From the NCBI GenBank assembly GCA_019652555.1, contig BPAJ01000001.1, positions 460,762 to 524,761 on the forward strand: 64,000 bases of DNA. Reading direction: 5' to 3'. Below are positions 4,565-13,250 of this stretch, one piece after another (the stretch's first letter is position 1; every line of letters begins with the position of its first letter). The notes beneath the pieces were generated by a model. It made no database searches. It was not told the origin of the DNA and saw nothing but the letters and a program-made list of their open reading frames with translations. A program made the position numbers and the translations under genes. Source of the DNA: Gammaproteobacteria bacterium. Its GTDB lineage: Bacteria; Pseudomonadota; Gammaproteobacteria; Magnimaribacterales; AG-339-G14.

Positions 4565-5458
4565 TTAAACTGATCTTTGTTTTTTATCCTTTTCATTAGA
4601 TTTTTTTATCGTATTTCTTATATTATCCCAATCTTCGTCAGTTAGGCTATTAAGATTAGCAAAAGTACCTGATGAAGAAAGATACTGCGCACCATCAATT
4701 GCAATGGTTTGCCCAGTTAAATATTCACATCCATCAGCCATCAAAAAAGTCGCTAAATTTCCAAGTTCTTCCATTTCTCCTGCCCTTTGCAAGGGAATAT
4801 TCATATACTGGCTTGAAACTTTTTCATCTTTATTAGAGTCGCCTGTCTGGGGCATTAATCTCGACCAAGCTCCCTCTGTAGGAAAAGGACCAGGAGCAAT
4901 TGCGTTTAACCTTATCCCATACTGCCCCCATTCAACAGCCAACGATTTTGTCATGGCATTAATTCCTGATTTAGACATTGCAGAAGGTATAACAAAGGGA
5001 GAACCTGTCCATACCCAAGTTGCTAGAATTGAAACAATGCTGCCCTTTTGCTTATTTTCAATCCATCTTTTACCAACTGCGTTTGTTATATAAAAAGTTC
5101 CGTGAAAAACGATGCTAGCAATAGCATTAAAACCATTAGCAGATAAATCCTTGGTTCTGCTGATGAAATTACCTGCGGCATTGTTAACCAAGCCAGTTAA
5201 AGGTTTCTCTGCAAATAAATCTTCTATTGCCGATTCAATTGCTAGAGAATCTCTAATGTCTAAAGCAAAACATGAAATATTACCGCCCGTTTCATCGGTT
5301 AGTTCTTTTACCGTATCTTGTAAAACTGGTTCTCTTCTTCCACAAATTACAACCTCAGAACCATGTTTCAAAAAATGTCTAGACATTTCCTTTCCTAATC
5401 CTGAGCCTCCGCCCGTTACAAGAATCCTTTGTCCTTTTAAAGCATCTTTACTAAACAT
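4565..5458 (-). CDS. 2,4-dienoyl-CoA reductase-like SDR
   Basis: Intact 297-residue short-chain dehydrogenase. The cofactor motif TGGGSGLG is at residues 15-22 and NNAAG follows. The usual YxxxK is replaced by PSAMSKSG, and AVEWGQYGIRLNAIAPGP follows. This Ser-x-x-x-Lys arrangement with PSA is characteristic of the eukaryotic-type NADPH 2,4-dienoyl-CoA reductases (DECR1 and PDCR/SPS19), so the missing Tyr is expected and not a defect. The enzyme would reduce dienoyl-CoA intermediates of unsaturated fatty-acid beta-oxidation. Its start overlaps the MFS stop by 8 bases and the aldehyde dehydrogenase follows directly. Confidence in the SDR fold is very high, in the DECR role good. Confidence 0.85.
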   Translation of the reverse strand: MFSKDALKGQRILVTGGGSGLGKEMSRHFLKHGSEVVICGRREPVLQDTVKELTDETGGNISCFALDIRDSLAIESAIEDLFAEKPLTGLVNNAAGNFISRTKDLSANGFNAIASIVFHGTFYITNAVGKRWIENKQKGSIVSILATWVWTGSPFVIPSAMSKSGINAMTKSLAVEWGQYGIRLNAIAPGPFPTEGAWSRLMPQTGDSNKDEKVSSQYMNIPLQRAGEMEELGNLATFLMADGCEYLTGQTIAIDGAQYLSSSGTFANLNSLTDEDWDNIRNTIKKSNEKDKKQRSV

Positions 5459-6689
5459 CCTCTCTCACTCCTGTTTTAATAAAATTAAAAAATAGTTTTT
5501 GATTATAAAACATATATAAGATAAGAAATAACCCCAAAAAAGAAATAAAAAGATATGGAAAGCTTGGATTAATCATATACAAAGGCATTATTGAAAAAGG
5601 AGTTAATAAATGACCCAAAGGAAAGACTGTGCCCATCATTCCAGAAGCAGATCCTTGTTCATTCTTATTTATTGATAAGGAGAGAATAGAAACATTACCA
5701 GGTCTTGCCAACCCACCTCCGAAACCAAATATAGCTAACAATAAATAGAAGGAAATAATTTCTTCTACATTTGAAAGCATGTAGAAAACAATAGACATAA
5801 GAAATAGACCTATAAAAACTAGAGATTTAGGATTTAGGGAATATTTATCAACTATGAAAAGTTGCGTGATTAACCCTGATAAAGCGACTATTGCAAAGCC
5901 AATTGAGACAAAGAAATACAAATCTTCAGGGTTTTTTATAATTACGTCGTTTACATACAATGAGGAAGTCAAAACTATACAAGCATTTGCAATTCCCAAA
6001 AAGAAGCGATTATCAAGAAGGAAATACTCTTTATCTGAAAATTTAAGCCTTTCATTATCTTCCTGATTTTGAAAAACGAATCGTCTTTTTTAATAATTTG
6101 AAATTGAAAAAACCTATCAAAAGTCCTAATAAACTCAAGAAACAAAAGGCATCAATATATTATTACCAGATAACAACATTATAAAACCAACAGCTACTGG
6201 ACCTAAAACAACTCCAAATTGCCAGCCTGCATCTAGCCTAGCAAATCCCGAAGTTCTATTTGTGGTATCTGTAATGTCTGCAATTCTTCCTCCTGCGGAG
6301 GGTCTAACTGCACTTCCTAGCAAGCCATTAATTAATCTTGCTCCAATAAGCATTATAAAAAGAAGAGAAAGAGAAATAGGATAAAGTTGCGCAACTTTTA
6401 TAATTCCTGCAAATAAAAATAAAGAAATAGCAAAACCGATAATACCGAGCATGAAAATCTTACTTCTTCCTATTTTATCGCTTAATCTTCCCCAAAAAGG
6501 GCTAAAGAAGATCCATGCTAAAGCAGAAATAGAAAAAATCAGTCCTACTTGAAACTCATTAAATCCTAAAGATCTTATTTCTTGAGGAATTAATATAAAA
6601 ATTGTTGATTGACCAGCCCCAATGCATGCCAAAGCCCCAGATAAAACCCATATAGAATTTGGAGTTTTATTTTTTTTAGTCATACGCAA
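5451..6689 (-). CDS. MFS transporter, drug-efflux/TetA-like (frameshifted)
   Basis: Twelve-helix major facilitator. The N-terminal half (MRMTKKNKTPNSIWVLSGAL onward) has motif A as GRLSDKIGRSK between helices 2 and 3. ARLINGLLGSAVRPSAGGRI and TSGFARLDAGWQFGVVLGP resemble motif C-type TetA/multidrug exporters. The C-terminal half is track ORF 5451-5999; the two halves meet in 6000-6135 through one or two frame changes. It overlaps the upstream unknown gene by 14 bases and the downstream SDR by 8, so it is translated within one operon. Substrate is unknown. Confidence 0.82.
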
Positions 6690-8672: not shown

Positions 8673-10237
8673 TTAATTACCTGAAACTTTTCTATCTATT
8701 CCTTCCCAATAAGGATCTCTCAATTCTCTTCTGAGAATTTTTCCTGAAGGATTTCGAGGAAGTTCTTTAATGAATTCTATAGATTTAGGACACTTATAGG
8801 CAGCAATCTGAGATCTGGTATAGCTGATAATTTCTTCTTCAGATAATGAGCTTTCACCGATAACTACAAAACCTTTTACAGATTCACCCCATTTTTCATC
8901 CGGAACTCCCACTACCGCAGCATCTAAAATTTCATCATGACTCATCAAGGCATTTTTCCACTTCCGCTGGATATATATTTTCTCCTCCTGAGACAATCAT
9001 ATCTTTAACTCTATCATGAATGAAAAGAAATCCTTCTTCGTCAAAAAAATCCTGCATCTCCAGAATAGAACCAACCATCAACAATTGATTCCTTGGTTGC
9101 ATCGGGTTTATTCCAATATCCTTTCATATTTAGTTTTGATTTGGATATAACTTCTCCGATTTCTCCAGTTTCAAGGTCATTTCCATCATCATCAATAACT
9201 TTTAATTCAACTCCTTTAAGCGCTTTACCACAGGATCTTAACTTACCTCTTTCAGGATTATGATCATCAGGCATCATCATGGTTATTGCACCCGTTGTTT
9301 CTGTTAAACCATACACTTGATAGAGATCACACTTCATGATTTCTCTAGCTTTAACGATAGTGCTTTCTGCAATTGGTGAAGCTCCATAAACAACAAATTC
9401 CAAAGATGAGAAATCTGTGGTGATTGAATCAGGATGACTGATTAAAAATAAAATAACTGCAGGCACAAAAAGAGATGATTTTATTTTTTCATCTTCTATG
9501 AGTTGCAAAATTAAACCTGGATCGATATCAGCAATAATTATATTTCTACAGCCAAATATATAGCCCCAAATTCCCCAGTTAGTTCCAGCTACATGATACC
9601 CAGGCATACAAACAAGATTTGTACTTCCTTCTTCAAAGGGTACTATTCCGTCTATGGATTCATTGGCTGCAGCAAAATTTTCGTTAGTCAATTGAACTCC
9701 TTTTGGATGTCCTGTAGTTCCAGAAGTATAGAGTTGAAGAATGTCGTCGTTGGGAGAAGATTTTATTTCTGGGTTAGCTGAATTCTGTGAATTTCTCCAA
9801 GAAATGTAATCTTGATAATTTTCATGGTCTCCGTCTATAGCAACCACTTTTTTAATCTTTGGAAGATCTTCTAAAATTTGATCAATAACAGGGTAAAAAT
9901 CAGCACCTACAAAAAGAACTTCTGATTCAGAATCATTCAATACATAACTTACTTCAGGAGGTGCCAACCTCCAATTAACTCCAACCGTCACTGTATTTGA
10001 TTTTAATGTGCCAATTAAAACTTCAAAAAAGAAGTCAGAGTTTTTCCCATAATATGCAATCCGTGTATCAGGTTTACAACCGAGTTCTATAAGACCATTG
10101 GCAACCTGATTTGAATAATTATTTAATTCTTTATAAGTTGTTTCACGATCTAAAAATTTATGAGCTACTGAATCGGGAGTTCTGCTAAAACGCCATTCAA
10201 ATAATTCTTGTAAGGTTTTATTTTCAGGTATTTTCAT
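8673..10237 (-). CDS. Fatty-acid/aryl acyl-CoA ligase (AMP-forming; frameshifted)
   Basis: Activates a carboxylic acid to its CoA thioester through an acyl-AMP. The P-loop-like core [14 protein letters not shown] is near residue 170, followed by [18 protein letters not shown] and [10 protein letters not shown]. The C-terminal lid ([33 protein letters not shown] with the catalytic Lys) lies in another frame. Two closely spaced frame changes near 8990-9050 separate the halves; the bridging segment reads as the expected [16 protein letters not shown]. Restored length of about 521 residues is normal. It is alone on the minus strand, preceded by the small-protein promoter region. The acid substrate cannot be told. 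Confidence 0.9.
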
Positions 10238-10286: not shown

Positions 10287-10315
10287 TTGACAGAAAATAG
10301 CTTTGATAGTAGTAA
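10287..10315 (+). promoter_or_regulatory. Putative sigma70 promoter of the small membrane protein gene
   Basis: A perfect -35 box TTGACA (10287-10292) is followed after 17 bases by TAGTAA as a weaker -10. The predicted start would leave a leader of about 75 bases ahead of the ATG at 10397. Together with a GGGGAGG Shine-Dalgarno at 10384-10390 this suggests strong, independent expression. Confidence 0.5.
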
Positions 10316-10396
10316 ATTTTTTTAAAATATTGCTAGCTATTTTCCTATATGTTTTTATTACCTTAGCTAAATCACATATTAATGGGGAGGTACCTT

Positions 10397-10618
10397 ATGG
10401 ATAAAGCGTTCGATATGATTAGAGATTTGGTTACTGGTTTAACTGGTATCCTAGTCGGTGTAATCGGTCTTGGTGTTGTAGCTGGTATTGTTTTTGATAA
10501 CAATGCTTGGTTCTTCGGCGGAGTTCTTGGAAATTTACTTGGTGTAATCCAACAATTGGGTGATGCTGGTATTGTAGGACTTCTAGCAGCAGCATTGCTT
10601 TATAAATTACTTAAGTAA
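10397..10618 (+). CDS. 73-residue two-helix membrane protein, stand-alone gene
   Basis: I do not recognise a named family. I choose the ATG at 10397 instead of 10382 because GGGGAGG ends 6 bases before it. The protein has a short amphipathic start (MDKAFDMIRDLV), a Gly-rich helix with GxxxG spacing (TGILVGVIGLGVVAGIVF), a polar turn DNNAW, a second Gly/Leu-rich stretch, and ends LLYKLLK. Two hydrophobic helices and a Lys-rich tail suggest an inner-membrane protein. It is flanked by its own promoter and a perfect terminator, a combination typical of abundant small proteins. The next gene encodes a diverged copy. Function unknown; a holin- or bacteriocin-like peptide is possible but no cognate genes are near. 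Confidence 0.8.
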   Translation: MDKAFDMIRDLVTGLTGILVGVIGLGVVAGIVFDNNAWFFGGVLGNLLGVIQQLGDAGIVGLLAAALLYKLLK

Positions 10619-10628
10619 TTTTAGCTTT

Positions 10629-10660
10629 GAGTCGGAGCTTTTGCTCCGACTCTATTTTTT
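10629..10660 (+). terminator. Intrinsic terminator after the small membrane protein gene
   Basis: A perfect 10-bp stem GAGTCGGAGC/GCTCCGACTC with a TTTT loop (10629-10652) is followed by TATTTTTT. It starts 11 bases after the stop codon. This is among the strongest hairpins in the window. Confidence 0.9.
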
Positions 10661-10663
10661 GTC

Positions 10664-10889
10664 ATGGATATCTTTAAATTTAAAAAATAAAAAATTCTTA
10701 TATAGATCTACAGAAGTTCTAGGTCTTTTTATCGCTATATCTTTGTTAATTGGATTAATATTTGGTCCCGAAACACCAGTTTTCGGAAATGTATTAATTA
10801 ACTTTTCAGAAGTTATGAATCTTTTTGGTGAAAATGGATTATTAGCTTTGGTATCTCTAATAATCATTTTTGCTATTTTAAAAAAATAA
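10664..10889 (+). CDS. Second two-helix small membrane protein, paralogue (probable frameshift)
   Basis: The C-terminal part aligns almost without gaps to the preceding protein: IGLIFGPETPVFGNVLINF against the first protein's AGIVFDNNAWFFGGVLGNL, then a Gly-rich second helix ending ILKK against KLLK. The track starts it at a TTG inside the terminator hairpin (10641), which is unlikely. A better start is the ATG at 10664 (MDIFKFKK), which enters the same reading frame if one A is removed from the A-rich run at 10682-10694. No independent promoter is evident, so expression may depend on terminator read-through. Function unknown. Confidence 0.6.
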
Positions 10890-10931: not shown

Positions 10932-11948
10932 TTATCTATATTTATTTTTATCAAAAAATGACTCAAGAGATACTAAAAGTTTTGTCACAGTTTCAGAAAT
11001 AAAACCTGAAAACCTATCTTGAAAAGTTTGTTTGGTAATATAAGAAATCTCAAAGATTTCATGTTTCTTAGATAAATTAAGTAGATATTCATCACTCGTA
11101 GAAATCTCATCAACCAGGCCAACTTCCAAAGCTTTAATTCCCTCCCATGTTTCTCCAGTTGCAATTTTTTTTATATTTAATGAAGGTCTAAACTTTTTAA
11201 TGTGATCTTTGAAAAGAATGTGAATATCTTCTAAGTGCTCTTTGAATTTTTTTCTTCCTGCTGGAGTAGTTTCTCCGAACATAGTTATAGTTCTTTTGTA
11301 TTCGCCTGCAGTGTGTAATTCATAGTCAATATCGTTTTTTTTAAGGACTTTATGAAAATTGGGTATTGCAGCAACCACTCCGATAGAGCCAATTATTGCG
11401 AAAGGAGAAGAAACAATTTTATTACACACACAGGCCATCATGTAGCCTCCTGACGCTGCTACTTTATCTACACAAGCTGTTACTTTTATGCCAGCATCTC
11501 TTAACCTTTGAAGTTGCGCTGCACACAAACCGTAACCTATTACAGTACCCCCAGGACTTTCTAACCTTAAAACAAGCTCTTGGCATTTTGTTTCACTTTT
11601 AAGAATGGCAGTTATCTCTTCTTTTAAGTTTTCAACACTTGAAGCTTCAATATCACCATTAAAATTGAGCACGTAAACAGGTTTAGAAATTGACTTATTT
11701 TTTTTTGCTTTTAAATTTTTCTTCTTTTCTTTAAGCAACTTTTTTCTTTCATTCTTATTTAAAGTTAAAAACTTAACAGCGCCCGCCATATTTTCCAATT
11801 TATCCGATAAATTGGTTATTTTTAAAGTACCTGTTGAAGAGGATTCTTTATTTTTGGAGGAAAAGAAAATCAAAAAAGGAATAGAAATTATTACTATTAA
11901 AGTTATAGTTTTGAGCAAAAAGATACCGTAATCAATTAAAAATTCCAT
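10932..11948 (-). CDS. sohB: SohB-type membrane serine peptidase (family S49)
   Basis: Membrane-anchored protease related to signal peptide peptidase SppA. An N-terminal helix (residues 10-30) and a Lys-rich linker are followed by the S49 core: LRLESPGGTVIGYG, then KVAASGGYMMACVCNKI with the nucleophile Ser and IIGSIGVV, then the region with the catalytic Lys (ELHTAGEYKRTITMFGE). The 338-residue length matches SohB, which has a single catalytic domain unlike the double SppA. The gene is intact and separated from serS by 31 bases on the same strand. Its likely role is envelope protein quality control. Confidence 0.93.
   Translation of the reverse strand: MEFLIDYGIFLLKTITLIVIISIPFLIFFSSKNKESSSTGTLKITNLSDKLENMAGAVKFLTLNKNERKKLLKEKKKNLKAKKNKSISKPVYVLNFNGDIEASSVENLKEEITAILKSETKCQELVLRLESPGGTVIGYGLCAAQLQRLRDAGIKVTACVDKVAASGGYMMACVCNKIVSSPFAIIGSIGVVAAIPNFHKVLKKNDIDYELHTAGEYKRTITMFGETTPAGRKKFKEHLEDIHILFKDHIKKFRPSLNIKKIATGETWEGIKALEVGLVDEISTSDEYLLNLSKKHEIFEISYITKQTFQDRFSGFISETVTKLLVSLESFFDKNKYR

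Positions 11949-11979: not shown

Positions 11980-13250
<1,271 letters not shown>

Follow-up and report, generated by a model that had tools for sequence, protein, structure and literature searches.

Subunit c of the ATP synthase (AtpE), a Gly-rich two-helix hairpin of ~75-80 amino acids, is very abundant and forms homo-oligomeric rings. MscL has an N-terminal amphipathic segment, a Gly-rich first helix and a second helix with a basic end, and the PMP3/YqaE (UPF0057) proteins are tiny two-helix membrane proteins. Holins and leaderless bacteriocins resemble, in outline, hydrophobic hairpins of helices that are small and end in basic residues, and CydX, KdpF and AcrZ bind to larger membrane complexes and tune them. 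Here we analyzed a tandem pair of genes, g1 and g2, from a SAR86 bacterium. Our sequence comparisons indicate that the small membrane proteins they encode form a real and conserved family, so far undescribed, and that one of its members is probably very abundant.

The window, meaning the whole stretch of 64,000 nucleotides that was analyzed, comes from a genome of 1.24 Mb that is most closely related to bacteria of the SAR86 cluster, and it is assigned to a SAR86 genome. The first-pass annotation had placed in it the g1 reading frame with a TTGACA box and a GGGGAGG Shine-Dalgarno sequence upstream, a 10-bp hairpin behind it and a second open reading frame further on, and each of these was found where it had been placed (Table 1). 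Flanking genes, here and below, are named from our reading of their protein sequences.

Table 1 Features of the g1-g2 locus and its flanks, in window coordinates.
Feature	Position	Strand	Basis or remark
Acyl-CoA-synthetase-like gene, frameshifted	8673..10237	-	Flank, divergent from g1; ORF list
Promoter region: TTGACA (10287-10292) and conserved downstream block GAAAATAGCTTTGATAGTAGT	10287..10313	+	Conservation
Leader of ~80 nt with conserved block AGCTAAATCACAT	10314..10396	+	Alignment of 20 loci
Shine-Dalgarno sequence GGGGAGG of g1	10384..10390	+	In all 20 aligned SAR86 loci
g1, 73-aa helical-hairpin membrane protein, MDKAFDMIRDL...LLYKLLK	10397..10618	+	ATG 10397, stop ends 10618
Intercistronic hairpin, perfect 10 bp, followed by TATTTTTTGT; T-rich tail in the window	10629..10652	+	-20.4 kcal/mol, z -6.0
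g2, diverged paralogue of ~75 aa, MDIFKFKK...ILKK	10664..10889	+	Comparison with 14 intact relatives; paralogy to g1
sohB-like gene	10932..11948	-	Flank, convergent to g2; ORF list; 86-91% identity in genus

We found no established family to which these proteins could be assigned, in agreement with the first-pass annotation. Nothing in Pfam or NCBIfam reached the curated cut-off, and nothing significant was found in PADLOC or in PHROGs, where the best match had an E-value of 0.15 and no assigned function. The PDB yielded 0 sequence matches up to E 10, as well as 0 Foldseek fold matches up to E 10 for a moderate-confidence model of g1, and viral structure models gave no significant fold match. 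Hits to HpsJ-like C, YrvL, DUF2975, Spec3, CD47 and BrnQ were rejected: they fell below curated cut-offs, were scattered and look like matches of hydrophobic composition. A published description of the family was not found in the open literature searched, although one may exist elsewhere.

The well-described proteins of similar build are also poor matches. Like subunit c, g1 is a Gly-rich two-helix membrane hairpin of about that size, but it carries an extra amphipathic helix and does not lie in an atp operon, and hhalign gave a probability of only 0.9% against the E. coli AtpE sequence. g1 had no Pfam match of any kind up to E 10, and the ATP-synt_C model matched none of its relatives up to E 1. 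Nor does the second transmembrane helix of the family alignment hold a conserved acidic residue that could correspond to the ion-binding Asp/Glu. The amphipathic N-terminus, Gly-rich first helix and basic end of the second helix recall MscL; however, g1 and g2 are half its length, there is no Pfam match, and hhalign gave 1.0% (E. coli MscL). SAR86 is not known to store sulfur. The sulfur globule proteins of the sulfur oxidiser 'Ca. Thioglobus autotrophicus' are described as proteins of periplasmic sulfur globules (PMC6509183), and they were tentatively set aside as the identity of the Thioglobus copies of the family.

The control region of g1 is strongly conserved. TTGACA is invariant across 20 aligned SAR86 loci and the entire 27-nt promoter box is kept in relatives; the conserved promoter block has its sole match in the window at this site, with 0.02 expected. 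The TTGACA promoter that had been proposed is thus present as a conserved box, but its -10 box is weak and a promoter scan missed the hexamer as one of a pair. The Shine-Dalgarno sequence is indeed unusual, as had been noted, with GGAGG found upstream of only 1 of the 47 window ORFs of 120 aa or more.

The g1 protein shows 97-100% identity to its counterparts in 14 other SAR86 genomes and about 74% to those in the rest of SAR86. Its pN/pS is about 0.03 among SAR86 relatives, and pN lies far below pS in both g1 and g2, so that the coding nature of the two frames is well supported by comparison. This bears on the idea that the conserved element is mainly an RNA, consisting of leader and hairpin, with incidental reading frames. 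Leader and hairpin are conserved and synonymous divergence is reduced, as such an element would require, but the low pN, together with protein similarity that spans families whose DNA has diverged, makes it extremely improbable. Moreover, RNAalifold found no conserved secondary structure in the leader (0 pairs), and Rfam gave no match over threshold, only sub-threshold matches on the hairpin.

The second frame had been described as a diverged copy of the first, and this was confirmed, the two being distant paralogues (hhalign probability 97.5%, E 6e-12). In the window two runs shortened from A7 to A6 (10682-10687 and 10689-10694) break the g2 frame near its start, and the body of the gene is in frame from 10695 to 10889. 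The A7 runs are intact in relatives (for example at locus L014). Relatives in the genus begin with ATG-GA(A/T)-AT(A/C)-TTT-AAA-TT(T/C)-AAA (MEIFKFKK or MDIFKFKK), equivalent to ATG 10664 of the window; the start given by automatic ORF calling, TTG 10641, falls within the hairpin and was rejected. Because several other genes of the region are also split, as overlapping frames (an MFS transporter at 5451-6689, the acyl-CoA synthetase and SerS at 11980-13250), the two shortenings in g2 are probably assembly errors and not gene decay. The split genes and the shortened A runs (10682-10694) all look like homopolymer indel errors of the assembly.

We next consider the distribution of the family. Family profiles matched 83 of 101 genomes of the SAR86 order, nearly always as exactly two tandem copies, and at the SAR86 loci that were read g2 lay on the 3' side of g1. 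The expectation that the two genes would be conserved as a pair in related genomes is therefore borne out, and both the family and the pairing are well supported. In an even sample of 369 Gammaproteobacteria genomes, convincing members were found in 8 (three SAR86, one Thioglobaceae and four of the three small families f104, f112 and f134), a count made after dropping two matches located within large frames (L037/G205 and L061/G124). A phylum sample of 399 genomes held nothing convincing outside SAR86, and matches outside Gammaproteobacteria were weak and mostly within large proteins. Another candidate, L054, was rejected because it came from reading the region of a VapB-like antitoxin gene out of frame. 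Within SAR86 and Thioglobaceae, profile E-values were mostly 1e-13 to 1e-32.

Members share a Thr where helix 1 begins, [IV]xFG or a similar motif where it ends, a Gly before the amphipathic helix, LGxxG[LI]xxL before helix 2 and a mostly basic end, as seen in the alignments and their invariant columns. Two departures from this plan were observed. A 183-aa protein of family f112 (L033, genome G227, minus strand 1168-1719) has a C-terminal Lys-Thr-repeat tail of ~110 residues, and at L034 and L035 (f104) the loop that joins the helices of the second copy is enlarged and varies in length, for a total of 94-99 aa, unlike other members.

In Thioglobaceae, the family of SUP05, 33 of 60 genomes matched, with an uneven spread over genera: 11/11 genomes of g481 (1-3 copies), 8/9 of g482 (two with an internal stop) and 8/9 of g484, as against 0/11 of g112 and 1/11 of g247. 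The g112 genomes are 1.0-1.6 Mb and mostly complete, and from their size they look like clam symbionts. The carriers thus look like free-living types, and the symbiont-like genera mostly do without the family. Families f104 and f134 have tandem pairs as well. Thioglobaceae have up to three copies, each with its own TTGACA promoter-like box and U-tailed terminator, an arrangement that suggests dosage. At L067:1089-2151 three such units stand in a row; copies 1 and 3 are nearly identical, as might result from gene conversion or from selection for dosage in such an array.

In a tree of 72 sequences, SAR86 g1 and SAR86 g2 each form one clade (with moderate support, from few columns), and the duplication that produced them would therefore predate the SAR86 order; Thioglobaceae duplicated separately. 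Neighbours change between lineages, yet the pair stays together. The left flank varies among SAR86 lineages, and the flanks include the acyl-CoA synthetase and sohB in the genus of the window, a pnp-like gene in L024, a CoA-transferase-like gene in L027, and ubiA-like and dapD-like genes in Thioglobus. Vertical inheritance of the pair weighs on the suggestion that g1 and g2 are a membrane-active bacteriocin, toxin or holin-type pair, possibly derived from a phage, with g2 as partner or immunity protein. In size and hairpin plan, and as small hydrophobic proteins with basic ends, they do resemble holins, including the small two-helix holins of phages, and leaderless bacteriocins in outline. However, a search of phage, plasmid and viral collections returned no relatives, the genes are chromosomal and under strong purifying selection with near-complete sequence conservation, and no lysis or export genes adjoin them. 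We regard such an origin as very unlikely.

The pair can also be lost. Comparison of G176 (L080) with L022:2593-3296 revealed a block of ~0.7 kb with the promoter, both genes and the hairpin that is cleanly missing from the former, with flanks 95-96% identical. The unit has therefore been lost in one piece, and some lineages can dispense with it. Four genomes assigned to the genus of G176 and L022 had no match to the family profile. As it is absent from some SAR86 and from most symbiont-like Thioglobaceae, the family is not essential everywhere. Such conditional use, shown by the clean loss in one lineage, would suit an abundant proteolipid that serves membrane-lipid or stress adaptation and forms no defined oligomer, as would the marine, mostly free-living distribution and the lack of the family in symbiont-looking Thioglobaceae genera. 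A role of this kind has been proposed for the PMP3/YqaE small proteins, which are unrelated to g1 and g2: they too are tiny two-helix membrane proteins, but the Pmp3 Pfam model gave no match and g1 and g2 are conserved paired copies. A non-specific membrane filler, moreover, needs no near-invariant transmembrane helix such as that of g1 (see below), and we consider a proteolipid role somewhat unlikely.

We then asked how strongly the two genes are expressed, as judged from their synonymous sites. Over the same seven genomes of the genus, mean pairwise pS was 0.224 for g1, 0.306 for EF-G, 0.292 for rpsG, 0.357 for rpsL and 0.616 for g2, with the caveat that low pS may also arise from RNA-level constraint instead of expression. 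The flanking genes had a pS of 0.65 (SohB) and 0.64 (ACS) in 13 genomes of the genus. EF-G is a top-expressed gene; windows of EF-G of the length of g1 ranged from 0.20 to 0.39, placing g1 at the low end of the range. The plain codon adaptation index is uninformative in this A+T-rich genome; synonymous divergence and a log-likelihood ratio of codon use are informative. By this ratio the codon score of g1 lay above those of all 47 background genes and nearer to ribosomal genes (P 0.014, background sampling). High expression of g1 is thus supported, and the constraint is well documented for this gene. g1 is probably among the most abundant proteins of SAR86 cells, since it evolves like the cell's most heavily used genes. 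By contrast, g2 evolves as an ordinary gene, free of the expression-level constraint seen in g1. The earlier suggestion that both members of the pair are highly expressed is therefore supported for g1 and unsupported for g2.

Abundance also helps to weigh the proposal that the two proteins serve a larger membrane complex, for instance a transporter, oxidase or pump, as small accessory or regulatory subunits that bind and tune it in the manner of CydX, KdpF or AcrZ. Their size, their hairpin form and the one invariant helix would fit a binding interface, and the patchy distribution could track that of a partner. Nonetheless, no neighbour is conserved across lineages, a degree of constraint like that of EF-G points to a copy number above that of a typical accessory subunit, and several tandem copies with separate promoters suggest the dosage of a structural component. 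An accessory role is, in our estimate, on the unlikely side.

Between the two genes, which are spaced by about 43-67 nt, the hairpin was kept in 26/26 SAR86 loci, with strong stems of 7-18 pairs that vary in sequence from one lineage to another and z-scores of -2 to -7 in seven example loci. Its conservation is well supported. Its T-rich tail is less constant: the 8 nt 3' of the hairpin contain 7 Ts in the window, 0-5 in 14 same-genus relatives and 3-6 in other SAR86 lineages. The hairpin had been taken for a perfect 10-bp terminator, and the stem is indeed perfect, but with a poor T-tract at most loci its reading as a standard terminator is not supported across the family, where it would be a weak one at best. 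More likely it acts as a partial terminator or mRNA stabiliser between a strong g1 and an ordinary g2. The likeliest arrangement is that g1 and g2 are co-transcribed, with the 3' part weakened or processed.

AlphaFold2 places helices of g1 at residues 2-33, 37-56 and 58-72, with moderate confidence (pLDDT 76, pTM 0.51); a Thioglobus copy has the same helix plan at low confidence (pLDDT 59). Residues 1-12 are amphipathic (moment 0.70), 13-33 strongly hydrophobic and 37-56 moderately amphipathic (0.33). The charges at both ends, together with the Lys-rich tail of the f112 relative, favour a topology in which both termini are probably cytoplasmic. In nine aligned SAR86 g1 sequences, residues 15-33, LTGILVGVI(G/A)LGVVAGIVF, are invariant save for one column; the first helix does vary in L030, a more distant SAR86 copy. 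Such near-invariance is unusual for a membrane helix and is the main ground on which we propose self-packing. Oligomers formed through GxxxG motifs, as first suggested, are plausible for g1 given its near-invariant 19-residue first helix, although relatives do not retain the exact GxxxG motifs.

Our combined findings are tentatively best accommodated, and we put this forward as a possible reading, by g1 being an abundant, self-associating helical hairpin of the inner membrane that serves as a scaffold or a pore in the membrane, g2 being its minor, variant subunit. The two paralogous inner-membrane proteins would be encoded by an autonomous unit of two genes that is inherited vertically. From a strong ribosome site and the TTGACA promoter, and in line with its ribosomal-protein-like synonymous constraint, g1 would be made in very large amounts. 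It would fold from an N-terminal amphipathic segment into a Gly-rich transmembrane helix, then an amphipathic helix lying on the membrane surface and finally another transmembrane helix, whose end is basic. Since the first of the two transmembrane helices hardly varies on any of its faces, g1 would pack against its own copies to build a homo-oligomeric scaffold or pore. The hairpin may set the ratio of g1 to g2, either because transcription partly ends there or because the g1 mRNA is protected by it. A bolder version, which we think quite unlikely, is that g1 is the dominant inner-membrane protein of SAR86, with a relative in free-living SUP05, that forms a new kind of ordered ring or lattice capped or regulated by g2.

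SAR86 and SUP05 are among the commonest bacteria of the sea and have small genomes with few spare genes. That g1 is constrained like a ribosomal gene, yet has no family, name or structure, points to a gap in our knowledge of how SAR86 and SUP05 cells are built. The hairpin between g1 and g2 may offer a simple example of paired subunits expressed at unequal levels, and the culturable 'Ca. Thioglobus' strains make the role of the family testable.
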